Assembly: GCA_902542855.1 (NCBI GenBank)
Contig: CACBWE010000003.1
Span: 1 to 64,000, forward strand
From: an uncultured Pelagibacteraceae bacterium
GTDB lineage: Bacteria; Pseudomonadota; Alphaproteobacteria; Pelagibacterales; Pelagibacteraceae
DNA: 64,000 nucleotides
Direction of reading: 5' to 3'
Of the stretch, positions 4,117-24,756 are shown one piece after another. Under the pieces are notes generated by a model that made no database searches, was not told the DNA's origin, and was given only the letters and a program-made list of their open reading frames with translations. Position 1 is the first letter of the stretch. The number at the start of each line of letters is the position of its first letter. The position numbers were made by a program, and so were the translations under genes.

Positions 4117-4208
4117 TGGCGGAAGAGGAGGGATTCGAACCCTCGGTACAAGTTTCCTCGCACGGTCATTTAGCAAACGACTGGTTTCAGCCTCTCACCC
4201 ACTCTTCC
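4117..4208 (-). tRNA. tRNA-Ser (anticodon GCU)
   Basis: Minus strand GGAAGAG...CTCTTCC-G-CCA acceptor stem; anticodon stem GTCGT/ATGAC with loop TTGCTAA (GCT); long variable arm; GGTTCGAATCC T-loop. Confidence 0.93.
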
Positions 4209-4275: not shown

Positions 4276-5529
4276 ATGAGAAATAAGTACTCAGTATTTT
4301 CGCTAATCAAGAATGCTCTTTCGTATCATGAAAACTGGCAAAGGGCGTGGAAAGATCCTGCTCCTAAAAAAAAATACGACGCTGTTATTGTTGGTGGTGG
4401 TGGCCATGGATTAGCAACGGCTTACTATTTAGCAAAAAAACACAATATGAATAATATTGCTGTAGTCGAGAAAGGTTGGATTGGTGGAGGAAATACTGGA
4501 CGGAATACTACAATTATTAGATCAAATTATCTATGGGACGCCAGTGCAGGATTATATGACCATGCATTAAAAATTTGGGAAGGTTTATCTCAAGAACTAA
4601 ATTACAATGTAATGTTTAGTCAAAGAGGTGTAATGAACCTTGCACATAATTTACAAGATATTAGGGATTTAAAAAGACGAACACACGCTAATAGACTAAA
4701 TGGAATTGATGCAGTCTACTTGAGCACTGAAGAAGTTAAAAAGTTTTGTCCAATCATAAATACATCACCAGATATTAGATACCCTGTTTTAGGAGGAACT
4801 TTGCAACGTAGAGCTGGTACGGCAAGACACGATGCAGTTGCTTGGGGATATGCTAGAGGAGCAGATGCAATGGGTGTTGATATTATTCAAAATTGTGAAG
4901 TTAAAGGAATTAAAAGAAATGGAAATTGCGTTGAGGGAATAGAAACAACTAAAGGATTTATTAAAACTAATAAAGTTGGTGTTGTTGCAGCTGGTCATTC
5001 TAGTGTAATAGCTAATATGGCTGGTTTAAGACTTCCACTTGAAAGTAAACCTTTACAGGCTTTAGTTTCTGAGCCTGTAAAACCAGTTATTGATACAGTT
5101 GTAATGTCTAACGCAGTGCATGCTTATGTCAGTCAATCTGACAAAGGAGAATTGGTCATTGGTGCTGGAACGGATGATTACGTTTCTTACACTCAAAAAG
5201 GAAGTCACCAAATAGTTGAAGGAACATTAAATGCTATTTTAGAATTATATCCAATTTTCAGTAGAATGAGAATGTTAAGACAATGGGGAGGAATAGTAGA
5301 TATTTGTCCTGACGCTAGTCCAATTTTAAGTAAAACTTCAATTAAAGGATTATACTTTAATTGTGGTTGGGGTACTGGAGGATTTAAAGCAACTCCTGGA
5401 TCTGGAGATTTATTTGCTCATACTATTGCAAACGATGAACCTCACAAACTTAATGCTGCATTTAATTTAAATAGATTTGTAAGCGGAGACCTTGTTGATG
5501 AACATGGTGCTGCAGCGGTTGCTCATTAA
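4276..5529 (+). CDS. soxB: Sarcosine oxidase beta subunit
   Basis: Rossmann FAD motif [60 protein letters not shown]; operon with soxD/A/G. Confidence 0.93.
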
Positions 5530-8800: not shown

Positions 8801-8811
8801 TAAATGCTTAA
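5806..8811 (+). CDS. soxA: Sarcosine oxidase alpha subunit
   Basis: FAD motif VVGAGISGILAAKYA; C-terminal aminomethyltransferase-like domain. The provided ORF starts at 5782; the in-frame ATG at 5806 just after the soxD stop is more likely. Confidence 0.92.
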   Translation: MTKNLRVKSSEYIDETNRISFKFNGKTYHGFKGDTLASALLANDVHLVGRSFKYHRPRGIMTSGSEEPNAIVQVNPGTNRTEPNVRATEVEIYEGLEASSQNCWPSVEFDIGGINNFLSPFFPAGFYYKTFMWPASFWEKYEFFIRHSAGLGKSPTSSDPDIYDHRNVHCDVLVVGAGISGILAAKYAAKNNFKTLIVDEKNELGGSTIFENNEFNKIDNKTPSEWLKKEIEELKGIKNLEIKTRTSVAAYHQYNYLLARENLTDHLETKDKTNKIRQRLLKIRAKKVILATGALERPLIFNNNDRPGIMLSSAIKRYSEFYGVACGSKNIFFTNNDSAYESALSLYNKGIHVEAVIDIRDQSESKIVKKVEEAGIKIYWSHTIVDTAGYKRLNSVSIMKLSNDGTSVTGSKISISCDCLGVAGGWTPAVHLYTQSGSKLKFDEEKQIFLPNQNTSEQISVGSCGGDFKIDEIIKNLNQKLKDKLNIKETNLDNIKVEIDQENSKRNIWLLPSDIPLGKTKPFVDFQNDATAKDIKLALREGFRSIEHVKRYTTTGMGTDQGKLGNMHALGIIADTAGVKMGELGTTTFRPPYTPLTFGTIVGRNVGKFFDIFRKTPMNDWHVENKAEFENVGQWKRAWYYPINGENMHQAVQRESKAARESAGILDASTLGKIDIQGSDASEFLNRIYTNAWSKLAIGKCRYGLMLNEDGMVYDDGVTTRLGENHYLMTTTTGGAANVLGKLEDYLQTEWPELDVYLTSVTDHYATASLCGPNSKKILKKIISNLDLSDESFPHMSFKEAKIGNIQCRIMRISFTGEHSYEINVQASYGKDLWEKCMEAGKEFNITPYGTETMHLLRAEKGFIIVGQDTDGTMTPIDLQMDWIISKKKYDFIGKRSLYRSDTMREDRKQLVGLLTDDPNIVLEEGAQIVSELNQNPVEMLGHVTSSYFSPNLNKSIALAVVRGGKDMMGKKLFVPMENKNINVTIANPVFYDEKNERLNA

Positions 8812-9367
8812 CTATAATTCAACTATTAAAAATAAAATTAATCAAGAAAGTATTTCTGTAAAAGAGATTTTTCCGGTAATGAAAATTAATTTAAGAGGTA
8901 AAAAAAGAGAGTTTTTAACAAATGTTGGTAAAAATCTTAATATAATTTTACCTACAGAAGCAAACACTTCATCAATAAGTGATAAATTAACAGCAATATG
9001 GCTTAGTCCTGATGAATGGATGATAGTCTCAAATGAGCCTTTAAGCAAAGAAACTAACAAATACGAACTATATGAAGTGTTATTTAACAGTATTTCAAAA
9101 TCAAACTTAGGTGCTGTTATTGATGTAACAGACCAATTTGTTCAATTAGAACTCAAAGGTGAAAATATCTATGAAATCTTTTCAGCAGGATCTCCCTTTA
9201 ATTTTAATGAATTTAAAGAAAAGAAAGGATCAACAACTCAGACAGTATTAAATCACATTGATGTAATTTTACACCATAAAGATGAAAATATTGTAAACCT
9301 ATTTGTTAGAAGATCTTTTGCAGAACATCTTTACTCATGGATTGAGGATTGTTGCGCTAAATTATAA
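8804..9367 (+). CDS. soxG: Sarcosine oxidase gamma subunit
   Basis: Position directly after soxA with 8-bp overlap; LSPDEWMIVS; VIDVTDQFVQLELKG; FVRRSFAEHLYSWIED. Confidence 0.85.
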   Translation: MLNYNSTIKNKINQESISVKEIFPVMKINLRGKKREFLTNVGKNLNIILPTEANTSSISDKLTAIWLSPDEWMIVSNEPLSKETNKYELYEVLFNSISKSNLGAVIDVTDQFVQLELKGENIYEIFSAGSPFNFNEFKEKKGSTTQTVLNHIDVILHHKDENIVNLFVRRSFAEHLYSWIEDCCAKL

Positions 9368-9943
9368 ACTATCCAGCCATTCACTAAATTCTTTTGTTGC
9401 AATTATTACCTCTAAAGTGCTCACCAAATCACCATGAATTTTTTTATCTTTATCACTGACTATCATGCACTCAACACGAGTATGATCGCTTGTGTTTGCA
9501 TCAGATGTTGCAGAAAATTGAGATATGTATTGTGTGCTATTTTTGTAATAATAATGTTTTTGACTACCTTCTAAAAAATAAAATTTAGGAAATAATTCTT
9601 TTAAATCTTCAGCAATTATTTTTTTTATTTTTAAACAATCTTTTTTATTTTCAACGATGTTAATTCCTCTAATAAAATAAATCTTAAAATTACTATCGTT
9701 CCTTTTTATAGCAAGGTTAACATATTCATATTGTTTTAAATCTCCTGAATAGGAAACTTCATAAAATTTACTATCTAAAGGGTAATGTCCTTGATCATTA
9801 TTAATAATTTCATTAATTGTCATATATTTGGTTAAATTATCACCTATACTAAGTCCCTCTAATTCAAAATCTCTAATATCATCAGCTTTAACCCATGATT
9901 GAAAACCAAATATCAAAATTAATAATGATAAGAATATCCTCAC
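9362..9943 (-). CDS. Secreted DxxDFExEGxSxGDSLL-family protein, array copy 8 (last in transcription order)
   Basis: Signal-peptide-like N-terminus then ADDIRDFELEGLSIGDNLTKYM; proposed GTG start at 9943 (VRIFLSLLILIF); the called ORF to 10066 includes the array spacer. Confidence 0.75.
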   Translation of the reverse strand: MRIFLSLLILIFGFQSWVKADDIRDFELEGLSIGDNLTKYMTINEIINNDQGHYPLDSKFYEVSYSGDLKQYEYVNLAIKRNDSNFKIYFIRGINIVENKKDCLKIKKIIAEDLKELFPKFYFLEGSQKHYYYKNSTQYISQFSATSDANTSDHTRVECMIVSDKDKKIHGDLVSTLEVIIATKEFSEWLDSL

Positions 9944-10062
9944 AACTATTACTTTCTCATTGCGTCCTGTGCATGTCAATATTTTTAGAATCAGAATCAA
10001 TCTTATGGCTTTGCTTATCAGACTACAATACATAGGATTATGAGAGCAGCAATTAGTGAATA

Positions 10063-10644
10063 TCAATATGCTTCTTCATTAATCCAATTCATATGTTTAA
10101 GCGGTGTTAGAGAAATAGAAAAATTATCTCCATAATTTAAATTATTCTCAACTTGTTCTGACCAATTGACACACCACATTCTTATTAAATCTCCGTTAGG
10201 ATATTTAAATTCAACTACATCAGCATAACTTTTTCCATCCTCAACATTTTCATAATAATATCTATAACTATCTTCAGTCAAATTTTGAGTAATTGATTTT
10301 ATATCATTTATAACTTTTTCTTTATACTTTTTGCACTTCGTGAAATTTTTAGAAAAAAATGTACCACCAGAAATTTCATAAATCTTAAATTTAGGGTCAT
10401 TTTTTTTTAAGTGAAAAGAGATATTATCATATTCACTATTACTAATAGTAAATTGATATTTAATATATTTGTCACTCTTAGGATATTTCATTTGAAGAGC
10501 GTTTGATATTTCGTCCATGTTGTAATGATCAAGTAAACTATCCCCTACACTAAATCCCTCCATCTCGAAATCTCTGATATCATCAGCTTTAATCGGGGAC
10601 TGAAGGTAAATCATTAAAACCAATAAAAATAGAAGTATCTTCAT
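10063..10644 (-). CDS. Secreted DxxDFExEGxSxGDSLL-family protein, array copy 7
   Basis: MKILLFLLVLMIYLQSPIKADDIRDFEMEGFSVGDSLLDHY; two cysteines in predicted mature chain. Confidence 0.8.
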   Translation of the reverse strand: MKILLFLLVLMIYLQSPIKADDIRDFEMEGFSVGDSLLDHYNMDEISNALQMKYPKSDKYIKYQFTISNSEYDNISFHLKKNDPKFKIYEISGGTFFSKNFTKCKKYKEKVINDIKSITQNLTEDSYRYYYENVEDGKSYADVVEFKYPNGDLIRMWCVNWSEQVENNLNYGDNFSISLTPLKHMNWINEEAY

Positions 10645-10759
10645 AAAAACATTTTCCCACTATGATGTATCTGTGTCAAGATTTTGAAATAGTTGAAATT
10701 AGTTATTTATACTTTTTAATCTGATCACAACTGATAACATAGTATTTTGAAGTCTGTGC

Positions 10760-11329
10760 TTATTTGTATGCCTCATTAGTTAAAAAATCATTTGATTTAT
10801 TTGTTCTTAAATTTACAGCTAGATGATCTTGACCACCATGTTTTTCTGAATAATCGTTACAATGGACTGAAGCTATACCAGTATCTAGCCAAAATGTAAT
10901 CTGTCTATTTCGTGATCCTTGCCATTGATTATCATTATAAATTTTATCCTGTTCAGTTTTTTTTGCATTTGGAAAAGCAATTTCTAAATCACTCACAATA
11001 GAATTTTGTTTTTTAATGCATTGCTCCATATCTTTGGTTAGAAAAATACCAGCCAATGATTGTATTAAATATTTTTTATCGTTAGTTTCGTACATAAAAT
11101 CTACAGCATCATACACTTCAAAAAAACTCATATTATCATTTTGAGCTCTTTTATATTTATTACTGCCTGGGTAATCCCAGGTATTTTTCACAATAGATGA
11201 TTTTTCAAAAAAATTTAAAGCACTATCCCCAATGCTCATTCCTTCAATTTCAAAATCACTTATATCATCGGCAATGGTTAAGGATTGAAAACAAATTAAT
11301 AAAGCTAAAAATGTTAATAATATTTTCAT
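10760..11329 (-). CDS. Secreted DxxDFExEGxSxGDSLL-family protein, array copy 6
   Basis: MKILLTFLALLICFQSLTIADDISDFEIEGMSIGDSALNFF. Confidence 0.8.
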   Translation of the reverse strand: MKILLTFLALLICFQSLTIADDISDFEIEGMSIGDSALNFFEKSSIVKNTWDYPGSNKYKRAQNDNMSFFEVYDAVDFMYETNDKKYLIQSLAGIFLTKDMEQCIKKQNSIVSDLEIAFPNAKKTEQDKIYNDNQWQGSRNRQITFWLDTGIASVHCNDYSEKHGGQDHLAVNLRTNKSNDFLTNEAYK

Positions 11330-11349
11330 AAAATTAATAATTTTTATTT

Positions 11350-11943
11350 TTAATAAACAGTATCAAGATATTTATCAAATTCCTCTGAGTCTACAGCAAC
11401 TACTAATCGTGTATATTTATCACCATTCCTATTTATATCGAAGCAAACAATTGAAATCGGCTTTCTATCACTATCTATTATTTCAAAATCAATGTACTTT
11501 ACAGCTAATTGTTCTTTTGTTTTTCTATTTTTTTCTAAAAACCATCTCTTTAAATTATATTTATCACCTGTTACAATTAAAATTTCTTTCGCAATGCTCT
11601 CTTGTTTTTTATAACAATCATCTATGTTTCCATCTTGATTAATCAATAATCCCTCAAGACCATAAATTTTATATGTAGAGTCATCTTGCTTTAAAATAAT
11701 TCCAACATTGTCATATGTTTCGTATTTATCTCTATTATCCCAAGAAGAAATTGTTACAAATTTATTTTCATAAAAATAAGCTTTTTCACTTCCTAGTGCT
11801 TCTTTTATTTGTTTTTCAGACATAAAATTAAGCAAACTTTCTCCAATACTCATACCTTCAATTTCAAAGTCACTAACATCATCAGCCTTAGTAAACGATT
11901 GAAGACAACAGATTAAAATTAAGACTGACAGAAATGTTTTCAT
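11350..11943 (-). CDS. Secreted DxxDFExEGxSxGDSLL-family protein, array copy 5
   Basis: MKTFLSVLILICCLQSFTKADDVSDFEIEGMSIGESLLNFM; ATG at 11943 chosen over ORF start 11979. Confidence 0.78.
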   Translation of the reverse strand: MKTFLSVLILICCLQSFTKADDVSDFEIEGMSIGESLLNFMSEKQIKEALGSEKAYFYENKFVTISSWDNRDKYETYDNVGIILKQDDSTYKIYGLEGLLINQDGNIDDCYKKQESIAKEILIVTGDKYNLKRWFLEKNRKTKEQLAVKYIDFEIIDSDRKPISIVCFDINRNGDKYTRLVVAVDSEEFDKYLDTVY

Positions 11944-12055
11944 ATTAAATAGTGTCTCATTACCACCTATGTGTGTCAAGGTTTTGGGTTAATTTTAATT
12001 TGTTAAATGAACTATAAATAAAATTACCAAACACATCATTAGGATAGCGCAGTAA

Positions 12056-12682
12056 TTAATTATTACCGTAATTACTTCTTAGCCATTTTTCAACTTCGGT
12101 AGTTCCAATTTCAACATCAACATTATCCGAAAAATCCGTTTTATCTGACCAATCTGTATATCTAACTGTAATATATCCTTTGTTTAAATTCAAAAATAAA
12201 AGTTCCACAACACTTTCACCTGTTTTATCATCTGGATGTTTAAATTTTTCTGAACTTGAATTATTAAAATCTGTGAATGAATTTTTTAAATCATTTATTA
12301 TTCTTTTATGTTGATTTATGCAGTCATTTTTATTTTTACAAAGAAGTGCTCCTCTAATACCTGAAATTATATATTGCTGATCATTAGGTTTATAATAGAC
12401 CTGCATCACATCATAATTATCTATTTTAAAATTACCAGTTTCAGAAAATTCAGATATTCGAAACTTTAAATCAGTACCTTCATCATAGTTTGGAAAATTA
12501 TCTATTTGATTTTTACTGAAAAAATCAAGCAAACTATCACCTATACTAAGTCCCTCTAATTCAAAATCTCTAATATCATCAGCCTTGGTCCAGGATTGGA
12601 AACTAAAGATTAAAATTAATACAGTTAGAAAAAACCTATATTTTAAAAAATTTATTTGTTTAAGTTTACTGATTTGCAACAT
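12056..12682 (-). CDS. Secreted DxxDFExEGxSxGDSLL-family protein, array copy 4
   Basis: YRFFLTVLILIFSFQSWTKADDIRDFELEGLSIGDSLLDFF; usual ATG position is not ATG, so upstream start at 12682 overlapping copy 3. Confidence 0.75.
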   Translation of the reverse strand: MLQISKLKQINFLKYRFFLTVLILIFSFQSWTKADDIRDFELEGLSIGDSLLDFFSKNQIDNFPNYDEGTDLKFRISEFSETGNFKIDNYDVMQVYYKPNDQQYIISGIRGALLCKNKNDCINQHKRIINDLKNSFTDFNNSSSEKFKHPDDKTGESVVELLFLNLNKGYITVRYTDWSDKTDFSDNVDVEIGTTEVEKWLRSNYGNN

Positions 12683-13277
12683 TTCTTAAAAAATTTTCAT
12701 ACTCATTTGATGTAATTTCAACAGAGATTTGATCCGAATAATCAAGATCCTCATTCATATCGTATACGCTTACTGCAATTAATAATTCCTCATTTTTTGA
12801 TAATATTTCCATAACGTTTACTATAGATTTACCAGTGTCATCAATCCAATGAGAATCCTTATATTCATCTAGAATTACGTTATTATTAAAAAAAACTTTC
12901 AAATCAGTGATAATTTCTTTTTGTTTTGTATAACAATATTTAATATTGTCTTTACACATAATATCTCCACTCAAACCGTAAATAATAAAATTTTTATCAT
13001 CTGGTTTAATTGTAACTGCAATTTCATCATAAATATTTAAATTTGTTCTCATAGAATATTCATTAGAAGTACCAATTGCTAATCTGACAAACTTATTATC
13101 TTTATAAAAATGCGCATAACCGCTGTTCATTTCTGTATTTATTTGTTTTTTAGTAAAAAAATTTAAAAGACTATCACCCAAACTAAATCCTTCTAACTCA
13201 AAATCTTTTATATCATTAGCCTTAGCCCATGATTGAAAACTAAAAATTAAAATCAAAATTATTAAAAAAAACCTCAT
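12666..13277 (-). CDS. Secreted DxxDFExEGxSxGDSLL-family protein, array copy 3
   Basis: MRFFLIILILIFSFQSWAKANDIKDFELEGFSLGDSLLNFF; ATG at 13277 chosen. Confidence 0.78.
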   Translation of the reverse strand: MRFFLIILILIFSFQSWAKANDIKDFELEGFSLGDSLLNFFTKKQINTEMNSGYAHFYKDNKFVRLAIGTSNEYSMRTNLNIYDEIAVTIKPDDKNFIIYGLSGDIMCKDNIKYCYTKQKEIITDLKVFFNNNVILDEYKDSHWIDDTGKSIVNVMEILSKNEELLIAVSVYDMNEDLDYSDQISVEITSNEYENFLRNVANQ

Positions 13278-13393
13278 ACAAATCACTCTCTCACTGTGTC
13301 TTATCAGTGTCAAGATTTCAGAATAAATGAAATTAAAATTAAAAACTCAAGTAATCAAAACGCTATACCCTGGATTATGAGAGTGGTGCGCGA

Positions 13394-13984
13394 TTATTTG
13401 TAAGCTTCGTTCTGAATCCAAAATCTTAATTCATCAGTTGTTGAATTTACAGAGAGTGTATTTGTATAAATTTTATTATATTTTTCCTCCATAAATTTTT
13501 TATCCCAATCAGTGCAAAATACTCTAATTACACCATCTTTTATATAATAGTCACTTATATAGGCCTTACTCTCTCCCAAATTATTATCATAACGATTTGT
13601 GTGATTTCTAATTTCAGCATTTGGAACAATTTTTTGAATTTCGGCATCCACATCTTTTTTTATTTTTAAACATTCTTCAGGCTCTAAATTTATCATTCCC
13701 TTAACTGAATAAATTACATATTTTTTATCATTTTTTTTTATATGAAAATTTAAGTTTTCGTATTGCTTCATATTTTCTGGTATTAAACTTAATATCATAA
13801 AAGTTTTAGAATTTGGATAAAAGGCAGCTTCCTTAATTTCATTTTCAATTAGATTTTCATCAAAAAAATCCAACAAACTATCCCCAACACTAATACCCTC
13901 TATCTCAAAGTCTCTAATATCATCAGCCTTGGTCCAGGATTGAAGACCAATAATTAAAACTATTAATGATAAAAATATTCTCAT
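13394..13984 (-). CDS. Secreted DxxDFExEGxSxGDSLL-family protein, array copy 2
   Basis: MRIFLSLIVLIIGLQSWTKADDIRDFEIEGISVGDSLLDFF; ATG at 13984 chosen; the first 40 codons of the called ORF are array spacer. Confidence 0.78.
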   Translation of the reverse strand: MRIFLSLIVLIIGLQSWTKADDIRDFEIEGISVGDSLLDFFDENLIENEIKEAAFYPNSKTFMILSLIPENMKQYENLNFHIKKNDKKYVIYSVKGMINLEPEECLKIKKDVDAEIQKIVPNAEIRNHTNRYDNNLGESKAYISDYYIKDGVIRVFCTDWDKKFMEEKYNKIYTNTLSVNSTTDELRFWIQNEAYK

Positions 13985-14103
13985 ATTCAACACTTTCTCA
14001 CTGTGCCTTATATGTATCAAGATCTCATGGAAATTAAAATTAATATTGGTAACCTGCTTGATCAAACTACTAGACCTAGGATTATGAGGGCCATGCTCAA
14101 GCA

Positions 14104-14673
14104 TTATTTAATAGATACTATCCAATCATCTAATTCTTTCCTAATAATACCTAATCTACCGTGATTTGTATAATCACTAATATATTTATTTTTATATTTG
14201 TAACAAGTTACTTGTATAAAATCTCCATTAGAAAAATAATATTCATTTAAATCCATAAAACCACGCCCAGAGGACATATCTGAATTTAAAGCTTCTTCAT
14301 ATTTTAAGTTAGTAAAAATACTTGAAATTTCATTATTTATTTTTAACCTTTTAGCATTGCAATCCTCTGGTAATTTATCCCAAGAAAAAACTCCATCAAT
14401 TGAATATATTTCATAATTTTTATCATTGGTTTTGTAATGAATCTGTATAAATTCATAATTATTACTTAAATTATAAATATCTACAGAAGTAAATTTTTTA
14501 TTAGTCTCCTCATAATTATAACTAATATTTTCTTTTATTTCTTTTTCTGTAAAATGGTCTAATAAACTGTCTCCAATACTGATTCCTTCTATCTCAAAAT
14601 CACGTATATCATCTGCTTTGGTTAATGATTGAAGGCTAACAATAAATGTAATTATTATTATAATTATTCTCAC
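14104..14673 (-). CDS. Secreted DxxDFExEGxSxGDSLL-family protein, array copy 1
   Basis: MRIIIIIITFIVSLQSLTKADDIRDFEIEGISIGDSLLDHF. Confidence 0.8.
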   Translation of the reverse strand: MRIIIIIITFIVSLQSLTKADDIRDFEIEGISIGDSLLDHFTEKEIKENISYNYEETNKKFTSVDIYNLSNNYEFIQIHYKTNDKNYEIYSIDGVFSWDKLPEDCNAKRLKINNEISSIFTNLKYEEALNSDMSSGRGFMDLNEYYFSNGDFIQVTCYKYKNKYISDYTNHGRLGIIRKELDDWIVSIK

Positions 14674-14677
14674 TTGA

Positions 14678-15253
14678 TCATGCTCCTTCAGATTTTAATA
14701 ACATTATAAAGAAATCTCTCAATTTTATCATTTCATTTGTGGGATTTGGATTATATTGATTTATCTCATCTAAAAGCTCTTGAGCAGTAGCATCATGTAA
14801 ACCATCTGAATTTACCCATTGGGAGGCACTTAATAACCAAAATTTTTTTGCCATTGAAAGATCCTGATCTAACCCAGCTAACCCAGAATAATAAAAAAAT
14901 CCCATATTATAACTTGCTATTGTAAAACCTAAATCGGATGCTCTTTGGTTCCAGTATATAGCTTGTTCATTGTCTTTTGGAGCCCCATGTTCACCTGTGA
15001 AATAAGTCCAACCAACTGTTGTCATTGCATTAACCTGTTCTTGTTCAGCTGCTGCATTAAGATAATAAATTGCTTTATCTAAAAGCTCTTTATCGTCAGG
15101 ATTATCATCACTCAAGTATAGATAATAATGACCTAGATTATTTTGCGCTATAGGATCACCATTATCAGCTAATTTTGTAAGTTTATCTATCTCGTTAGCG
15201 CTAACTGAAAAGGTAAAAATAGAAAAAAGTATTAAAAATAAAATTTTTTTCAT
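14678..15253 (-). CDS. Secreted Sel1-like repeat (TPR-like) protein
   Basis: Signal peptide; AQNNLGHYYLYLSD, AIYYLNAAAEQEQVNAMTTVGWTYFTGEHGAPKDNEQAIYWNQRASDLGFTIASYNMGFFY. Confidence 0.8.
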   Translation of the reverse strand: MKKILFLILFSIFTFSVSANEIDKLTKLADNGDPIAQNNLGHYYLYLSDDNPDDKELLDKAIYYLNAAAEQEQVNAMTTVGWTYFTGEHGAPKDNEQAIYWNQRASDLGFTIASYNMGFFYYSGLAGLDQDLSMAKKFWLLSASQWVNSDGLHDATAQELLDEINQYNPNPTNEMIKLRDFFIMLLKSEGA

Positions 15254-15257
15254 AAAT

Positions 15258-16031
15258 TTAATTAAATTGACACTTGCTATTTTTTAACTTTATAAAATCA
15301 TTAAAACTAACATTTAAAGTCTCTAAATGATATTTGCTTACTATTGGTTGTTCGCTTCTATCACCTAGTTCAACCACACTTAAATCATCTCTACCTGGAA
15401 ATGTTACATAACAATTAATTGGGTCAGATCCATCTGTTTTATTTGGACTTAAATTTGACGGGTCATCGTAATGTAATCTAGTAGTAACAGAGACTCTAAT
15501 TCCATTTAATTTACTATCTACGTATTGAAAATGAATAACATTGGTTTTTACTTCTCTTTTTTCTACTAATTGTTTTTGTAAATCTAATTTTTCACGCTCA
15601 ATTTGTTTCTTTTCTTCTTCTAGTTTTTCTTTTAATTCTAAATCGTCCTTATTAACATTTTCTAGTTCTTCTTTTAATTTAGCTATTTCTAAATCCTTTT
15701 CATTAATTTTGCCTTGAAGGATATTGCTTGAAGTTGATGTGTTCACTTCCTCATCTTTTGGAAGTTTACGTTCTGCGTTTATAATTCTATCTTCGTTATT
15801 AATAACTTTTTGCTCAATATCACTTAAAGATACTAATCGATGTGGCTTTTTATAAAGATAATAGGCCCAAGCTAATAATACAGGTAAAATACCCGCTGCT
15901 ACTAATATCAATGCTGTTGCTTTTGCATATCTCCAAGTGCTTGCTGATCTTTTTAGACGAGCTTGATCTTCGATATACTTATTTACTGGACTATAATCAT
16001 GAACATCATATTGAATTTTATCATCTGACAT
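15258..16031 (-). CDS. Single-TM coiled-coil protein of unknown function with C-terminal soluble domain
   Basis: TM segment ATALILVAAGILPVLLAWAYYLY, then coiled coil EKDLEIAKLKEELENVNKDDLELKEKLEEEKKQIEREK. Confidence 0.6.
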   Translation of the reverse strand: MSDDKIQYDVHDYSPVNKYIEDQARLKRSASTWRYAKATALILVAAGILPVLLAWAYYLYKKPHRLVSLSDIEQKVINNEDRIINAERKLPKDEEVNTSTSSNILQGKINEKDLEIAKLKEELENVNKDDLELKEKLEEEKKQIEREKLDLQKQLVEKREVKTNVIHFQYVDSKLNGIRVSVTTRLHYDDPSNLSPNKTDGSDPINCYVTFPGRDDLSVVELGDRSEQPIVSKYHLETLNVSFNDFIKLKNSKCQFN

Positions 16032-17779
16032 TATTTCTTCTTATCGTAGTCTGTAGCTTTTATAGGTCCTTTTTTTATAAGCTCCTCATCATCAGTAGGA
16101 AGAGGAACATAAACTAATTCTTTTCTTATAACTTCTTTTGGAACCTCGACCTTTTCATAAACTATTTTTTCTCCAACGTTTTTTTCAACTATTTTTTCAA
16201 CTTCTTTTTCAACTATAACTTCCTTTTCAACAATTTTAGGTTTAGTAAGTCTCTTTACACCAGCCCATATATATTTATTTATATAAACTGGTATCCAAGC
16301 AATATTTCGAAAGAAACGACCAAATCTCTCTTTAATTGGTCTGTTTCTTATCTCATGCATTCTCTCATCTTGTAAATGAAATCCTGCTAATGCCACTAAT
16401 GAACCAATAATCGATATAATGAATGCCATACTTCCAAACCACAACCAAAAAGCTTTATCAACATCTTTTTGAGAAAGATCAGACTCATCTATTTCATTAT
16501 CAAGACTATCGGTAAATTTATTTTTAAGTTGATTGCTTTTTGCAATTTTGTTTTCAAGTTTAATTTTTAGTATTTCGTTTTCTGGATTTTCTATAACTAA
16601 TGTGTTTAACTCATCAATTTCCTTTGTAATCTCTTCAATTTGCTTTTCTAAATTTCCTCCAGATATAAACTCACCTACAACTTTAATTTTAATTGCTATT
16701 CTATATATTTGATTTTCCCTAGCCTTTTCTTTTAACTCCTTTTTTTGCTTTACAAGTAAGTCATTTAAATCATCGTAGGTTGTTTTTTGATCGTTCGAAT
16801 TTTGTATTACATCTGCTTTTTTCTTTAAAAGTGGTTCTAACTGATTTTCTTCAATATTTCTTATTTCATCATTAATTTGAGCTATTCTTAAATTTGCTTT
16901 TTTATTAATTCGCTCAATTTCCTTGGTATTTTTTCCACCACTAACAGCAGAAGCTTGAGCTAAATCATTCTCATATTTTTGAATTAATTTTTCTTTTTTA
17001 TCAATATCATTACTAATTTTATCCTTGTCTTCTCTTAATTTTTTTCTTTTACCACCAAAAACATCTCCCTTAACATTAAATTTGTCGATTTGTTCTTGAA
17101 TTCTATCTCGCTCTTCAATTAAACCTTCTAATTTATCATTTTCTCGTGCTATAGTTTTATTTAATCTTTCAATATTTGGATCTGCTATATCTACCTGACT
17201 ATTAAGTAAAGTAATGTCATCAATTCTTTGTTGTTCTATCTCAGATTTTTCTTGATTTTTAATTTTTATATCATTTCGTATATTTTCTATATCTAAATTT
17301 AATTTAGTTAAATCAGATTTCAAATTTATATTTTTTATTTTCTCTTTTGTGTCTTCAATTAATTTTCTTTGATCTTCAACTATTTGAGATCTTTGATTAT
17401 AAGCAAGCTCAAATCCTTGAAGTATTGTTTCAAATGTAATGAAAGTTACAGCAACCAAAGCTAGTAAAAAAACTATTTTCCATACCAATCTACCTGCGTA
17501 ATAAAAAACTGATGCTAATGGTATTTTTGTTAATTCAATTAAGGTAACAACAAGAAATGATAAGCCAACAATTATACTATTAATATCTAGATCATTAGCA
17601 GCTTCTGCTAATTTTAAATCACTTTGACCTTTGCTTAAAAAGAATAACATTGCAATCATAAAACTTACTGATGCAACCATTATTTCAATTGCCCATGCCA
17701 TAATTATTAATTTTTTACCCCACGGTGCTGTTTTAGCTTTTGGAAAAAATCTGAAATGTATATTATCTAAATTTACCAT
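16031..17779 (-). CDS. Multi-pass membrane protein with long central coiled coil (unknown function)
   Basis: N-terminal TM helices, roughly 300-residue coiled coil, C-terminal TM FGSMAFIISIIGSLVALAGFHL and VEKEV-rich low-complexity tail. Confidence 0.65.
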   Translation of the reverse strand: MVNLDNIHFRFFPKAKTAPWGKKLIIMAWAIEIMVASVSFMIAMLFFLSKGQSDLKLAEAANDLDINSIIVGLSFLVVTLIELTKIPLASVFYYAGRLVWKIVFLLALVAVTFITFETILQGFELAYNQRSQIVEDQRKLIEDTKEKIKNINLKSDLTKLNLDIENIRNDIKIKNQEKSEIEQQRIDDITLLNSQVDIADPNIERLNKTIARENDKLEGLIEERDRIQEQIDKFNVKGDVFGGKRKKLREDKDKISNDIDKKEKLIQKYENDLAQASAVSGGKNTKEIERINKKANLRIAQINDEIRNIEENQLEPLLKKKADVIQNSNDQKTTYDDLNDLLVKQKKELKEKARENQIYRIAIKIKVVGEFISGGNLEKQIEEITKEIDELNTLVIENPENEILKIKLENKIAKSNQLKNKFTDSLDNEIDESDLSQKDVDKAFWLWFGSMAFIISIIGSLVALAGFHLQDERMHEIRNRPIKERFGRFFRNIAWIPVYINKYIWAGVKRLTKPKIVEKEVIVEKEVEKIVEKNVGEKIVYEKVEVPKEVIRKELVYVPLPTDDEELIKKGPIKATDYDKKK

Positions 17780-18238
17780 TTAAAATTCCTTGTAATATTG
17801 CATTATTTTTTTATCTTCATCCTTTTTTCTTATATATAAACCTGCAAGTGCAAAAATACTTCCAACTATAGAGAGCACAAAACTTAAAAAGAAAAATATT
17901 AAATTGTAATTTTGGTTATATTCATCAATAAAATTATAATTAACAATATAAAGCTCAAAAGTTTGAAGATATGTTTCGAATGAAACAAAAACTAATAACA
18001 ATAAAGTAAATAAAAATAATAATTTATAAAAAAACTTTTGTGCAAATATTACTGCTGTTGCAACGGGTATTTTACACAAATTCACAAGTAAAATTATGAT
18101 ATACATTGCTATTATTAATATTTTATCTGCATTATCAAGATTTTTAAATATAAAGTAATGACTAAAGAGTATTAGAGTAGCAGCTAATATTAATTCAGTA
18201 CTCAAGCTTAATTTTATTAAAAAATTATCTATTTTCAT
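17780..18238 (-). CDS. Small membrane protein, apparent paralog of 16031..17779 lacking the coiled coil
   Basis: LVNLCKIPVATAVIFAQKFFYKLLFLFTLLLLVFVSFETYLQTFEL aligns with LIELTKIPLASVFYYAGRLVWKIVFLLALVAVTFITFETILQGFEL of the neighbour; C-terminal TM also aligns. Confidence 0.7.
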   Translation of the reverse strand: MKIDNFLIKLSLSTELILAATLILFSHYFIFKNLDNADKILIIAMYIIILLVNLCKIPVATAVIFAQKFFYKLLFLFTLLLLVFVSFETYLQTFELYIVNYNFIDEYNQNYNLIFFFLSFVLSIVGSIFALAGLYIRKKDEDKKIMQYYKEF

Positions 18239-18722
18239 TTCTATTTTTAAATTTTTGGAAAAACATAATTGTTTTTCTTTTAATACTTTGCAAAAAACTT
18301 TCCTCTATCCCAAAAATTTCTGCAACTTTTTTAATATCTCTGTCTTCTTCTTCGCTATAAACATGATCTTCGTGGGCTAATTGAAATAAGACTGCAATTA
18401 TAAACTCTAAAAAATCTTTATGTTCATCTCCAATTAATTTTTTTAATCTCAAAGCGTCATAATCAATCGGATTATCATCAGCATTAGCCTCTTCCATTAT
18501 TCTTACCAAAATCCTTTTTTGGGTGGGATCGTGTGGAATAATTTTTAATATAGCTTCTTCTTCGATTTCACTAAAATGACCATCAGCTTTACATAGTTTT
18601 GTTGCTAACGTTAAAACACCAATTATACAAATAGTTTGCTTACTTTCGTGTCTATACTTTTCCCACATACAAGTTCCTGATTTCTCTAAACTAACCATAT
18701 TTTGAATTGAATGAATACTCAT
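18225..18722 (-). CDS. TerB-like (tellurite resistance TerB / DjlA-N-like) protein
   Basis: LATKLCKADGHFSEIEEEAILKII and a second motif IAVLFQLAHEDHVYSEEEDRDIKKVAEIFGI. Confidence 0.7.
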   Translation of the reverse strand: MSIHSIQNMVSLEKSGTCMWEKYRHESKQTICIIGVLTLATKLCKADGHFSEIEEEAILKIIPHDPTQKRILVRIMEEANADDNPIDYDALRLKKLIGDEHKDFLEFIIAVLFQLAHEDHVYSEEEDRDIKKVAEIFGIEESFLQSIKRKTIMFFQKFKNRNENR

Positions 18723-20030: not shown

Positions 20031-21443
20031 ATGCAATATTTAAAAAATATAATTATTGCCCTAATCATTTTATTGGGTTTAATCACTTTTGCCCAATCAG
20101 AAACTTCTTGGATAAAAAAGAAAGATAAATCCGAAACAGTCAAAAAAGTTGAAGAAAAATCTAATTCAACCTGGATAAAGAAAAAAATTAAGGAAGATAA
20201 AAAAGAATATAAAAAAGAAGAAAAGGAAATTACTAAAGAGGTAAAATCTTGGATAACAAAAAAATCTAAAGATAAATATATTGATAGTATTGATAAGCTT
20301 CCTGAAAATGCAATTTACTTTACAGCTTCAAATGAAACAAAAAATCTTTTGGTTTATGGATATGTCCAACCAGATGTTAATTCAAAATTAATTAATGGTT
20401 ATTATGAAACAAGCAAAGGTTTTGGTTATTTTAATGACGGCAAAACTACTTGTAAAATTGGATCTACAGTAATCGATGTGTCTTCGGGAGAAGTTACAGC
20501 AAGAGTATCAGGTGAATGTACTAACGGTATAAAATTTACAGGTAAAACATCTCAAAATCAAAATACTGGAATGGGATTTGCTAAGACTAAGGATGGTAAG
20601 AATAGATTTCTTTTTGATTTTAATATTCAAAGAACAGAAATTGCTAAATTATATGATTTAAATTTAAATTTTTCTAAAAATAATTCTTTATTAGCTAGTA
20701 ATCAAAATAATGAAGATGACCAGATCGATATTAAACCCAAAGGTAAATACTATGCTCTTTTAATAGGTAATTCTAATTATATTAATTGGGCTTCTTTAAA
20801 ATCACCCAAAAATGACGTTAATGAAATACAAAAAGTTTTAAATAGTAAATATAATTTTGAAGAAATTATAACTATTATAAATGGTACTGAAAAAGATATC
20901 ATGAAAGGCTTTAAAAAATTATCTAAAATAACAACTGACTCTGATTATGTTTTAATTTATTACTCTGGACATGGTGATAACACGGGACTAAATAATTACT
21001 GGATACCTGTGGATGGTGAAAAAGAGTCTGGACTAGGGGATTGGATAAATACAGCTGAAATTGCAGATTATATCATGGATAAAATTCCAAATAGACATAT
21101 AGTTTTGATGTCAGACTCCTGTTATTTTGATGTAAAAACCAAAGGTGGTTCAATTACAAACAGAAAAACAATGTCATATGAAAAGTTATTAAAAAGACGT
21201 GCAATTATGTTAGTACAATCTGGTAGCAATGAACCAGTATTAGATACATCAGATGACGAACACTCAATGTTTGCAAAAAGCTTTATTAATTCAATAAAAA
21301 ACAATCAAAAAATTATCAGAATGTCAGAAATAATTGAAGAAATTATTTTATCTCATTCTGGTATGCAACAGCAACCACTTGGTGTTCGAATGAAAGGTTG
21401 GGGTGACACAAGTGGAGACTTTTTATTCATAGCAAAAAAATAA
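20031..21443 (+). CDS. Secreted caspase-like (peptidase C14 / metacaspase fold) protein
   Basis: Signal peptide; YALLIGNSNY, YYSGHGDN (His codon 20970-20972), LMSDSCYF (Cys codon 21120-21122); three (S/T)WI(K/T)KK motifs near the N-terminus. Confidence 0.85.
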   Translation: MQYLKNIIIALIILLGLITFAQSETSWIKKKDKSETVKKVEEKSNSTWIKKKIKEDKKEYKKEEKEITKEVKSWITKKSKDKYIDSIDKLPENAIYFTASNETKNLLVYGYVQPDVNSKLINGYYETSKGFGYFNDGKTTCKIGSTVIDVSSGEVTARVSGECTNGIKFTGKTSQNQNTGMGFAKTKDGKNRFLFDFNIQRTEIAKLYDLNLNFSKNNSLLASNQNNEDDQIDIKPKGKYYALLIGNSNYINWASLKSPKNDVNEIQKVLNSKYNFEEIITIINGTEKDIMKGFKKLSKITTDSDYVLIYYSGHGDNTGLNNYWIPVDGEKESGLGDWINTAEIADYIMDKIPNRHIVLMSDSCYFDVKTKGGSITNRKTMSYEKLLKRRAIMLVQSGSNEPVLDTSDDEHSMFAKSFINSIKNNQKIIRMSEIIEEIILSHSGMQQQPLGVRMKGWGDTSGDFLFIAKK

Positions 21444-21446
21444 TTT

Positions 21447-22736
21447 ATGAAATATCGACTATATTTAGTAAGTTTAATTTATATTTTTTTTGCCTTTTCA
21501 GCTCAAGCTTTTGATATCAGAAGTATAAATAACAATAAAATAATATCCAAAGCTGCTTATGATATTAATGATACTAATTTAGTTGATATTGAAAATGCTG
21601 AAAATCTTTTTAAACATAATAAAAATACTAAAAAAGCCTTAACTGAAAAACAAAAAGACATAATCAAAAATAATAAAAACAGGAGTCAACCTAAATACAA
21701 AGGTGGTGCTGAAGAACTTTATGACCAATACATAAATAGCGTAGTTTTTATTGGAAACTTAAAAAACAATAGACTAATTGGTATGGGCTCAGGTTTTGTG
21801 ATTAAAGATAAAGGGAAACTAAAAATAATTACAAACTGGCATGTAATAGATGGCGCAGACAGCTTAAAAGTTTGGTTGAAACCTGAAGTAATGGTTGATG
21901 AAAATTATTTGATCAATGAAGTAGACTCTTACTCGGCTAAAATAATAAATACTAATGAAACAAAAGATTTGGCTATACTTAAAGTTGAAAACCTACCTTT
22001 GAAATTAAAACCTGTTAATTATGGCAAATTCAGAAGTGTCAGACCTGGGCAAACAGTTTTTGCAATGGGACATCCTGAGGGGCTCCTCTGGACCTTTTCA
22101 CCTGGTTATGTAAATCAAGTTCGACCAAACTATAAATGGAGATATAAATCATCCTCACATAAAGCAAATGTAATTCAAACTGATGCCAACATTAACCCAG
22201 GTAACTCTGGTGGTCCTTTATTTGATAAAAATAAAAAATTAATTGGCGTTAATACATTCATTGCTGAAGGAGAAGGTTTAAATTTTGCTATAGCAATTGA
22301 TGATGTTATTGAATTTATAAATGAAAAACCTAAGCCAATTAAAAAGAAAAAAAGCAAATATATTCAAAAAAAAGATAAAGGAAATACCTGGATAAAGAAG
22401 AAGGAAAAGAAAAAGTCTGAAAAAGGATCAATTGATTTATCTGATGCGAGAGAAGTTGATATGAATAAAAATGGTACTATTGATGCTTGGCTTGTAGATG
22501 AAAACGACAATGGTATTTATGAAATTGCATATGGAGATGAAAACGAGGATGGTATTATCGAAATTGTAGCTATAGATAAAAATGAAGATAATAATTTTGA
22601 AGTTATTTTAATTGATACAAATAAAAATGGTAATGCTGACGAAGCTGAAATCGATGAAGATGAAGATGGTAAAACAGATGTTATTGCCTATGATTACAAC
22701 GAAGATGGGGAATGGGATAAATTTGAAAATGTATAA
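21447..22736 (+). CDS. Secreted trypsin-like (DegP/HtrA-type S1) serine protease with C-terminal Ca-binding-like repeats
   Basis: TNWHV (His codon 21840-21842), DLAIL (Asp codon 21966-21968), GNSGGPLF (Ser codon 22206-22208); seven 13-residue DxNxDGxxD repeats at the C-terminus. Confidence 0.88.
   Translation: MKYRLYLVSLIYIFFAFSAQAFDIRSINNNKIISKAAYDINDTNLVDIENAENLFKHNKNTKKALTEKQKDIIKNNKNRSQPKYKGGAEELYDQYINSVVFIGNLKNNRLIGMGSGFVIKDKGKLKIITNWHVIDGADSLKVWLKPEVMVDENYLINEVDSYSAKIINTNETKDLAILKVENLPLKLKPVNYGKFRSVRPGQTVFAMGHPEGLLWTFSPGYVNQVRPNYKWRYKSSSHKANVIQTDANINPGNSGGPLFDKNKKLIGVNTFIAEGEGLNFAIAIDDVIEFINEKPKPIKKKKSKYIQKKDKGNTWIKKKEKKKSEKGSIDLSDAREVDMNKNGTIDAWLVDENDNGIYEIAYGDENEDGIIEIVAIDKNEDNNFEVILIDTNKNGNADEAEIDEDEDGKTDVIAYDYNEDGEWDKFENV
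22458..22730 (+). repeat. Seven in-frame 39-bp (13-codon) DxNx(D/N)Gxx(D/E) repeats
   Basis: DMNKNGTIDAWLV/DENDNGIYEIAYG/DENEDGIIEIVAI/DKNEDNNFEVILI/DTNKNGNADEAEI/DEDEDGKTDVIAY/DYNEDGEWDKFEN. Confidence 0.85.
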
Positions 22737-23204
22737 TTACTTTTGATCGACTGTAATTTTTATTTTCATAATTTTATCTTCTAAATTTTTAATAGCTTCC
22801 ATTATTTTCTTTTTTTCCAATTTAGATATTTCAATACCTTGATCACTTTTTGGATCTTCCGCCTGTTTAACAACTTCAGTGAGTTTACCATGGAGTATGG
22901 TTGACTTAACTAACATTTCATCTATATCGTTAAGTTTGTGAGACTCTAAATTATCTGCAACATTTGCAACGATATATTCATGAGCAATTAATAATGGAGG
23001 TGCTTTACCTTTCTTTATACAGGCAACATCAAGTTTGATTGAATCATGATGATCTATGTGTCTTTCAGGATCATTAGGATTGCTACACTTTCTCAAATAA
23101 GATGCGGATTTTCCGATTGCTGCTTGAACTTCGTCTTCATTTAAAATCTTTAAAACTTGCATAATACCATTTTCAATTGATGCAGTTTTTCTTATCGTAG
23201 CCAT
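22737..23204 (-). CDS. Putative phage CII-like / HTH regulatory protein
   Basis: AAIGKSASYLRKCSNPNDPERHIDHHDSIKLDVACIKKG resembles CII/CP76-type regulators; weak, from pattern only. Confidence 0.45.
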   Translation of the reverse strand: MATIRKTASIENGIMQVLKILNEDEVQAAIGKSASYLRKCSNPNDPERHIDHHDSIKLDVACIKKGKAPPLLIAHEYIVANVADNLESHKLNDIDEMLVKSTILHGKLTEVVKQAEDPKSDQGIEISKLEKKKIMEAIKNLEDKIMKIKITVDQK

Positions 23205-23256: not shown

Positions 23257-24756
23257 GTGAGAATAAAAAAATTTATAAAAAATATAATATTCTATACATT
23301 TTTGCTTAGTTTAGCTTTTTTAAATACTAATTCTTATTCAGATGAGAGAATTTGTGAAAATAATCTAATTGATCATATAATCAAATTTGGCGAAAGAAAT
23401 TTTGAATATAATGAATTAAGAAATGATGCAGGCATTCATTTTGCTTATGATTGGGATAGAAAAAATAATAAAATTATAGTTAGAAGGGACAAAAATAATT
23501 ACCCAATAATTAGATATTCTTTATTTGATAATAAAAATTTTATACCTAATAAAACAATTATAAAAAAAATAGATAATGTTGACTTATCCACTATCAAAGA
23601 TGAAGATTTAATTAAACGTACTTATTATTCAGGAAATGTAAATTTTGAATTAGATAACGGTAAAAATATTTTGATTACTGCAGGAAAATATAAATTTAAT
23701 AATTTTAAATTATCTAATTTTGAAATTTTAAGTATACAAAATATTGATACTACCAAAGGTATATTGGAGATGTCTTTTACATCTCAATTTACAAATATAA
23801 GAAATGATTTAAAAAAAGATTTAAAGGATACTGATTTCCTTAATAATTCTTCTTTACATTCAATATGTAATGAAGCTCGAAAATTTGAAACCTGGCCTCT
23901 AGAGTCAGTTATATTTGATGAATACAGATACGATGCTGATGTTAGAGAAGGTCTAAAAAACAAAGAACTTCTGATTAGTGAAATATTTCAACTTACTATT
24001 GACAATAATTTACTTCGAACTTTGAGAACTGAAAAAGGAGTTGGTTTTTTTAGACAATCATTTGATTTTAGAAAATTTCCATTTGATAAACAAAAACTTG
24101 TTATTAGAATTGAAAGTGGGGCTGGAAATTATTCTAATAGTAATTTAGAGGACTCTAGTAATATTGGATCACTTACATTTATTACACCAGAACCTGGTGT
24201 TTTTCTAAATTTAAATAAATTTTTAAATCCTGAAGTTAATAAACTTAAAGCATGGAAAATAAGTGAAAATGGAATTAAAGTACAAAGCAAAGTATTATCG
24301 GAAGATAGATATGATATTTATGGTCAAAAAATTGTACCACGCACAGAAAATGTTCTCGATATAGAAATAAATATTGAGAGAAATTTCCAGCATTACTTAT
24401 TAAAGATAATGTTACCAGTATTTTTAATTCTTTGTGTTGCCTGGTACGTTTTATGGATACCAACAGAAAAATATGAAGCCAGACTCAACACTTCAATAAT
24501 AGCTCTATTAGCATTGATTGCTTATAACTTTGTATTCCAAGATGATATTCCTAAATTAGAATATTTAACTGATCTCGATTGGTTTATTTTATTGTCCTAT
24601 ATATTTTGTCTGATACCTGTATTTCTGAGTATTGGTTTCAGCAAGTTTATTGCAACAAATCAAAAGAAGATAATGAAAATAAATAAATTAATCAAAATTT
24701 GGGGTGGATTACTTTATTTGATTTTAACTTTACAAATCTTTTATCCTGTAATTTAA
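23257..24756 (+). CDS. Pentameric ligand-gated ion channel (Cys-loop superfamily) homologue
   Basis: Signal peptide; FRQSFDFRKFPFDKQKLVIRIES (FPFDxQ signature); ERNFQHYLLKIMLPVFLI TM1; RLNTSIIALLALIAYNFVFQDDIPKLEYLTDLDWFILLSY TM2-TM3; four TM helices in the C-terminal half. Confidence 0.88.
   Translation: MRIKKFIKNIIFYTFLLSLAFLNTNSYSDERICENNLIDHIIKFGERNFEYNELRNDAGIHFAYDWDRKNNKIIVRRDKNNYPIIRYSLFDNKNFIPNKTIIKKIDNVDLSTIKDEDLIKRTYYSGNVNFELDNGKNILITAGKYKFNNFKLSNFEILSIQNIDTTKGILEMSFTSQFTNIRNDLKKDLKDTDFLNNSSLHSICNEARKFETWPLESVIFDEYRYDADVREGLKNKELLISEIFQLTIDNNLLRTLRTEKGVGFFRQSFDFRKFPFDKQKLVIRIESGAGNYSNSNLEDSSNIGSLTFITPEPGVFLNLNKFLNPEVNKLKAWKISENGIKVQSKVLSEDRYDIYGQKIVPRTENVLDIEINIERNFQHYLLKIMLPVFLILCVAWYVLWIPTEKYEARLNTSIIALLALIAYNFVFQDDIPKLEYLTDLDWFILLSYIFCLIPVFLSIGFSKFIATNQKKIMKINKLIKIWGGLLYLILTLQIFYPVI

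Follow-up and report, generated by a model that had tools for sequence, protein, structure and literature searches.

The first 64,000 nucleotides (nt) of contig CACBWE010000003.1, from an uncultured Pelagibacteraceae bacterium, are referred to here as the window. They carry an array of eight consecutive minus-strand genes which encode related exported proteins (Table 1). An earlier note made from the sequence alone, here called the original prediction, described an expanded family under diversifying selection; the reading now moves to old lineages which are swapped whole at a hypervariable site linked to a protease and channel cassette. The host is assigned to SAR11, a possibility that the note had raised, because its relatives are named Pelagibacteraceae single-cell genomes. 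The assembly holding the window amounts to 836 kb in 49 contigs and is 60% complete. The eight consecutive open reading frames (ORFs) across 9362–14673 are borne out both by their coordinates and by a profile built from the eight proteins, which in the genome of the window recovers these eight and no others (E 1e-66 to 5e-74). Some of the ORFs taken from the first start codon overshoot the true start because the leaders upstream are open. With starts anchored on the profile, the products are 189–203 residues long, with a mature form of about 170 residues.

In each protein a signal peptide is followed by the motif ADDIxDFEIEGxSIGDSLLD and then by a body of about 150 residues. Export of the family, as originally proposed, is consistent with the signal peptides and with Ala20, which on sequence reading lies before DD in a context that fits a type I signal peptidase site; the same reading finds no lipobox Cys in the array proteins. 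Pairwise identity to copy 8 is 28–39%, and the residues invariant among the eight are Q15, S16, A20, D22, D25, F26, E27, E29, G30, S32 and G34. The motif is as first described, except that its closing LL departs in copies 1 (GDNLTK) and 3 (GDSALN). Among the 211 distinct members used for the family tree and for the cysteine and segment-identity counts, the N-terminal segment 20–48 is the best conserved, with a mean pairwise identity of 57% versus 24–29% in later segments. The conserved start and diverged remainder are thus real, although the diversifying selection offered as their cause is not supported. A near-invariant pair of cysteines was missed earlier: C104 is found in 210 and C158 in 194 of the 211 members, and for this reason the pair is likely to form a periplasmic disulfide.

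As predicted, the proteins match no named family: neither Pfam nor NCBIfam gives a match above cut-off for the eight, and a search of the PDB with the family profile yields no significant match. Over 145 members no Pfam family comes up repeatedly, and DUF7738, DUF4783 and Csd3_N, each a single weak Pfam match, were set aside as not reproducible across these sequences. In a survey of 248 Pelagibacteraceae genomes, each at least 80% complete except the window's own, the profile detects the family in 24 genomes from five of ten genera (one of the 24, G497, is a marginal match with many stops), leaving about 90% of the sampled Pelagibacteraceae without it. Members outside SAR11 were sought and rejected, there being none in 386 other genomes of the class sample (narrower profile) or in 199 others drawn from the phylum (wide profile), and only two distant copies, in one genome from another family of the same order. 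A phage origin was likewise rejected: 50,697 phage records hold no copies, and a pattern scan of IMG/VR finds neither a relative nor the leader pattern described below. The viral structures in BFVD give nothing convincing. A comparison of copy number across SAR11 genomes, which had been suggested at the outset, shows that large arrays recur, with 1 to about 13 copies per locus; adjacent family genes share orientation in 144 of 146 pairs. The same architecture is present in more than 25 independently assembled genomes, and an assembly artefact, the concern raised originally, is therefore unlikely.

AlphaFold2 models of gene 2 (145 sequences) and of mature gene 8 (50 sequences) have predicted local distance difference test scores of 94.3 and 90.6, respectively. 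Both share one topology, namely a beta-hairpin, a helix, three strands, a long helix, three to four strands and a C-terminal helix, in an order which we take to be that defining the Mog1p/PsbP-like fold. In Foldseek, the six best PDB matches for the gene 2 model include five named PsbP or CyanoP (E 0.006 to 0.03, template modelling (TM) score ~0.3), the best PsbP-family match having E 0.006, probability 0.95 and TM 0.34; the remaining one is a chain of the plant NDH–photosystem I complex. With the gene 8 model PsbP, Apa and DcrB lie near the top, DcrB at probability 0.99, TM 0.43–0.50 and E 0.09. This weak but repeated support makes a Mog1/PsbP-like fold likely for the array proteins. Several Mog1p/PsbP-like proteins are also periplasmic or exported; the array proteins differ from them in their low identity (~10%), in TM scores of 0.3–0.5 with no profile match, and in having the cysteine pair, the DFEIEGxSIGDSLL motif and the arrays. 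A BLIP-like fold was rejected, since it ranks 17–18 with the gene 2 model only and is not among the top matches of the gene 8 model. The conserved N-terminal motif corresponds in both models to the hairpin and the first helix, so that its conservation can be structural, and N-terminal conservation probably reflects the fold.

The history of the array is read from the family tree. The nearest relative of 199 of the 211 members lies in another genome, and the common ancestor of the eight window copies spans 118 leaves. A recent tandem expansion is thereby ruled out: the array is an assortment of old lineages, not the product of a recent burst of duplication, and the 'eightfold expansion' first proposed does not hold. 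Nor does diversifying selection. The ratio of nonsynonymous to synonymous substitution rates (dN/dS), taken pairwise between orthologues, is 0.14–0.37 with a median of 0.20, and per segment it is highest in the signal peptide (0.37) and 0.13–0.24 elsewhere, including the diverged later part. It stays below 0.4 in every segment, and dN/dS above 1 was found neither overall nor in any segment. The orthologues are under purifying selection. Together with their placement in the tree, this suggests that the copies are old lineages, each constrained, which are dealt out in different combinations. The repertoire is open, with 163 lineages at 55% identity among the 211 sequences, 129 of them found once.

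Comparison of related loci points to how these combinations change. One end of the array is fixed by soxG, and this boundary is conserved in loci L045, L047, L048, L049, L053 and L060. The flanks of L049 (soxA and membrane genes) are 92–100% identical to those of the window, and its soxG 82%, while none of its seven array genes is more than 43% identical to any of the window's eight. L045 resembles L049. L053 (AG-360-K10) has three window array genes in common in a different order, the orthologues of genes 5, 4 and 2 being 91%, 85–87% and ~80% identical; L048 and L060 (AG-898-M09) have one each, the orthologues of gene 1 (82–84%, L048) and gene 6 (90–91%, L060). Variation thus arises by whole-gene replacement at a fixed site beside the sarcosine-oxidase operon. 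That a whole exported array is replaced between flanks 92–100% identical suggests strong frequency-dependent selection in the ocean. As a lead, the neighbourhood resembles the published border of hypervariable region 4 (HVR4) of SAR11 strain HTCC1062. In that strain the region stops at a sarcosine dehydrogenase gene, with tRNA genes on its flanks (Wilhelm et al. 2007, PMC2217521); here the array adjoins the sarcosine oxidase operon, and a tRNA-Ser lies nearby at 4117–4208. The reported content of HVR4 is different, comprising pilins, a globin and a sulfotransferase.

The array is also marked by a leader specific to the family. Gaps between array genes are mostly 0–20 nt or 100–120 nt, and the long gaps contain a leader which ends in AAATCTTGACACACATAGGaCACAGTGAGAAAGTGTT beside the start codon. 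Over all loci there are 86 leader matches, 82 of which lie upstream of family genes; the other four are at a gene fragment or an array end, or are weak matches. The 110-nt leader is conserved far better than the genes downstream of it. It was not found in ten near-complete family-negative genomes, nor, at the mismatch level used, in three family-bearing genomes of genus g278. Leader and conserved 5' end together form ~190–250 nt of repeated DNA per unit, a length sufficient for homologous exchange to start. Within a locus the signal peptides resemble one another more closely (similarity 0.50) than they do across loci (0.38), and the conserved start may for this reason also reflect homogenisation of the 5' end. 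Candidate roles of the leader are a promoter, a 5' untranslated region or a recombination site. Derivation from a tRNA was considered, since the 5' part of the leader resembles an anticodon arm with the loop CTCATAA, and was rejected: Rfam detects no tRNA in it, stem pairing does not exceed that of shuffled arms (0.49 versus 0.52), and RNAalifold gives no structure.

The second property of the array is its link to an exported caspase. Gene clusters (numbered c1 and upwards) were built around 28 family loci and joined by single linkage, the trypsin cluster c2 taking in a few looser members; the recurrent partners are the caspase c1 (21 loci), the trypsin-like protease c2 (19) and the pentameric ligand-gated channel c3 (13). 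The least biased test of the link is a search for the caspase (c1 or PF00656) and not for the array. A caspase is present in 12 of the 248 genomes; these 12 all belong to the 24 that bear the family (hypergeometric 3e-14, and 3e-13 if the genome of the window is left out, with kinship ignored). The distance from the caspase to a family gene is at most 5.4 kb in 11 of the 12; the exception is G607, whose caspase stands at the edge of a contig. The link follows copy number, with a caspase in 11 of 13 genomes holding at least five family copies versus one of 11 holding one to three. Family genes stand on both sides of the cassette in many genomes, as in L141, L142, L143, L151 and L152.

Table 1. 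Features of the window, with coordinates and supporting evidence
Feature	Coordinates	Strand	Evidence and remarks
soxG, fixed array boundary	8804..9367	plus	Pfam SoxG E 1.4e-12
Array gene 1	9362..9949	minus	Profile-anchored start; first-start ORF 9362-10066
Leader of gene 1	9945..10054	minus	nhmmer E 1e-13
Array gene 2	10063..10644	minus	Profile; ORF 10063-10644
Leader of gene 2	10646..10761	minus	nhmmer E 1.1e-15
Array gene 3	10760..11329	minus	Profile; ORF 10760-11329
Array gene 4	11350..11946	minus	Profile-anchored start; first-start ORF 11350-11979
Leader of gene 4	11947..12050	minus	nhmmer E 1.4e-12
Array gene 5	12056..12640	minus	Profile-anchored start; first-start ORF 12056-12682
Array gene 6	12666..13280	minus	Profile-anchored start; first-start ORF 12666-13313
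Leader of gene 6	13281..13390	minus	nhmmer E 2.6e-20
Array gene 7	13394..13987	minus	Profile-anchored start; first-start ORF runs to 14104
Leader of gene 7	13987..14098	minus	nhmmer E 5e-23, alignment
Array gene 8	14104..14673	minus	189 residues, signal peptide; directly after Sel1-repeat gene
Exported Sel1-repeat protein	14678..15253	minus	Pfam Sel1 E 2.4e-15; directly upstream of array; 6 of 28 loci
Membrane-anchored coiled-coil protein (c14)	15258..16031	minus	
Two membrane/coiled-coil proteins (c9)	16031..18238	minus	
TerB-domain protein (c12)	18225..18722	minus	Pfam TerB E 1.7e-9
Exported caspase (c1)	20031..21443	plus	Pfam Peptidase_C14 E 4.4e-20; PDB MALT1 E 1.5e-8
Exported trypsin-like protease (c2)	21447..22736	plus	Pfam Trypsin_2 E 1.3e-28
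CII/CP76-like regulator (c6), convergent with c2	22740..23204	minus	Pfam Phage_CP76 E 2.8e-4, below cut-off
Pentameric ligand-gated channel (c3)	23257..24756	plus	Pfam Neur_chan_memb E 8.7e-6, just under cut-off

The cassette proteins retain the catalytic motifs of proteases and the features of a channel. Caspase c1, whose closest solved relative is the MALT1 paracaspase, has a signal peptide, a Lys-rich WIKKK/WITKK linker (24–92), a variable middle (93–225) and a caspase domain with SGHG and DSC. Of 35 homologues, all have the SGHG-type His motif and 34 have DSC/DTC, and the Asp two residues before the catalytic Cys presumably indicates Lys/Arg specificity, as in metacaspases. Protease c2 combines a WIKKK linker with C-terminal acidic DxNxxG repeats, and the trypsin motifs NWHV and NPGNSGGP are kept in nearly all true homologues. 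Among window genes the Lys-rich WIKKK/WITKK repeat is seen in c1 and c2 only; it is a candidate mutual cleavage site or envelope-binding tract. Channel c3 carries an extra N-terminal domain and, in keeping with a ligand-binding domain of the Pro-loop type, the FPFDxQ motif; its profile matches PDB channels at 8e-18 (9ftg) and 2e-16 (ELIC-type), with region 251–485 at 1e-13 to 1e-17. Close homologues of c3 (E <1e-50) occur in array genomes only, and distant ones also in array-less SAR11 genomes; a survey lists Pelagibacter among microbes with pentameric channels (PMC4795631). No nuclease gene lies beside the caspase in the window according to Pfam, and none is evident among the recurrent neighbours, only part of which were scanned.

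The caspase itself is modular. Over the 16 loci compared, identity of its middle domain ranges from 17 to 96%, and the middle and catalytic domains do not track the trypsin, channel or regulator beyond a rho of 0.3; the signal-proximal linker tracks all three (rho 0.6–0.76). Only the linker follows the other cassette genes, so the C-terminal portion of this protease has been exchanged on a constant N-terminal base, much as the variable ends of polymorphic toxins are swapped. A one-to-one match of array lineages with caspase types was also considered and is unsupported, a shared lineage not being predictive. Finally, the pro-region of the trypsin and the extracellular domain of the channel co-vary (rho 0.82, and 0.67 after removal of the regulator trend), which leads to the prediction that the two are in contact.

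Other loci hold variants of this neighbourhood. A PrsW-like membrane protease (by sequence reading) and a conserved exported protein (c26, c27) recur in the cassettes of L051, L060, L065 and L148, and PrsW and caspase are both listed among the releasing peptidases of polymorphic toxins (PMC3482391). In L148 an exported protein (1443–2765), which on sequence reading has two phospholipase D-like HxK motifs, lies beside a family gene and a cassette that shows no caspase; it could be an alternative effector. A second type of cassette, in L140, L046, L052, L068 and L155, has exported caspases of ~700 to >1000 residues with added domains and, in several loci, small exported genes (c15, c24), and in most it adjoins family arrays. 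In L050 the 3' portion of alphaproteobacterial transfer-messenger RNA (tmRNA) is matched in part at two places, 4707–4787 and 3810–3891 on the minus strand (E 6e-5 and 6e-4, below the Rfam cut-off), upstream of neighbouring genes. They are possible remnants of integration sites. Intact tmRNA genes adjoin family genes in L145 and L153.

The eight proteins are interpreted, tentatively and with somewhat less than even confidence, as variable recognition modules, and the locus as an extracytoplasmic conflict locus of SAR11 concerned with self/non-self discrimination or defence. The 'immunity or recognition repertoire' envisaged in the original prediction would still be the best functional reading, strengthened by the caspase, trypsin and channel neighbourhood, which lies beyond the coordinates that the note covered. 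Each genome would hold a changeable set of modules, whole genes being exchanged by recombination at the fixed site, and each array lineage would keep its own partner. The modules would act with the exported effector cassette of a caspase with middle and catalytic domains exchanged among genomes, a trypsin-like protease and an inner-membrane ligand-gated channel. The variable face of a module might bind a foreign or cognate partner (a protein from a phage or a competitor, or else an allele of a protease), whereupon the proteases would be freed or restrained. One protease could then cut the Lys-rich linker of the other, thereby activating it, and the channel would pass or execute a signal across the membrane, with defence or kin discrimination as the outcome. 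A bolder form of this idea is possible, if doubtful: a SAR11-wide extracytoplasmic immune or kin-recognition system, so far undescribed, in which a hypervariable exported repertoire drawn from a large shared gene pool controls a caspase–trypsin cascade coupled to the channel.

Several results weigh against the interpretation of the array as recognition modules of a conflict locus. Ongoing diversifying selection is not indicated by dN/dS. Of the 24 genomes with the family, ten carry one to three copies and no detected caspase, which indicates that the family also serves some purpose independent of the cassette. The caspase association takes no account of phylogeny, with genus g278 supplying seven of the 12 genomes, and a shared family lineage does not predict a shared caspase type. 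The co-variation rests on 16 loci, a small number, and PADLOC returns generic protease matches only.

The rival explanation that survives best, although unlikely, is a periplasmic polyimmunity locus in which each protein neutralises one competitor toxin delivered to the periplasm, the caspase cassette being a mere neighbour in a variable island. The published layout of such loci is matched by tandem distant paralogues in the same orientation (144 of 146) with small gaps and strain-to-strain change, and whole-lineage shuffling under purifying selection would suit fixed cognate partners. However, the caspase is never found without the family in the 248 genomes, known immunity proteins are mostly cytoplasmic (PMC3482391), there is no match to an Imm family and no polymorphic toxin was seen among the neighbours examined. 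It is rather improbable that each protein excludes its own type of phage, by coating or blocking steps of phage entry in the periplasm or at the outer membrane. A secreted hypervariable repertoire in a host under phage pressure would fit, and the most probable PDB match of the gene 8 model is DcrB, a periplasmic protein tied to infection by phages C1 and C6; on the other hand, the searches of phage records and IMG/VR found no phage-borne copies, and linkage to the proteases and channel is left unexplained. Slightly harder to sustain is the proposal that the array proteins are protease substrates, cut by the caspase or trypsin into fragments which gate the channel or signal to neighbours. Array proteins and proteases share a compartment, the proteases, channel and array are tightly linked, and the co-variation of trypsin pro-region and channel would be in keeping with it, but no conserved basic or acidic cleavage site is evident outside the fold and the models are well ordered throughout. 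Least probable of all is an ordinary role in periplasmic housekeeping or ligand binding, the proteins having been expanded to widen the range of nutrients. This would suit the metabolic operon next door, the low-copy members without a cassette and the purifying selection, but not the small size for a solute-binding protein, the want of a transporter among recurrent neighbours, the replacement of whole arrays beside a conserved metabolic operon or the scarcity of the family in Pelagibacteraceae.

If the interpretation as a conflict locus is true, one of the most abundant bacterial groups on Earth would possess a previously undescribed locus for recognition or defence. SAR11 bacteria have streamlined genomes, are heavily infected by phage and are thought to carry few defence systems. 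It is unusual to find an exported caspase together with a trypsin-like protease and a ligand-gated channel of animal type. To our knowledge, bacterial channels of the pentameric ligand-gated class are mostly without a known role, and the linkage of array and cassette offers a concrete route to asking what they do. Among open-licence papers joining SAR11 with metacaspases or tandem paralogues, titles and abstracts mention no such locus.

Of published concepts, the homogeneous polyimmunity locus (Zhang et al. 2012, PMC3482391) comes nearest: its layout is seen here, but its family and toxin features are not. Both consist of tandem distant paralogues (eight here and up to 13 elsewhere, at 24–57% mean segment identity) in one orientation, with small gaps and no toxin gene between array genes. 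In both, number and type vary between close strains, as between the window and L049, L045, L053, L048 and L060, with whole genes exchanged. The SAR11 array differs in that its members are all exported and belong to no described Imm family, and in that it has no polymorphic toxin in view and is linked to an exported caspase, trypsin and channel. NTP-dependent conflict systems (Kaur et al. 2020, PMC7159879) are reported to place caspase effectors in diversified conflict loci and in this resemble the SAR11 locus; they differ in that no NTPase or STAND (signal transduction ATPases with numerous domains) module was found among the SAR11 cassette genes, and in that the SAR11 components are extracytoplasmic. 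Trypsin- or caspase-activated nucleases serve antiviral immunity in caspase–nuclease (canu) and in trypsin–nuclease pairs (Tuck et al. 2025, PMC12799240), where, as proposed here, caspase or trypsin-like proteases are the activators in bacterial immune loci. Those systems pair a protease with a gated nuclease (of the metallo-beta-lactamase type in canu), whereas the SAR11 proteases carry signal peptides, and a channel and a secreted array take the place of the nuclease.

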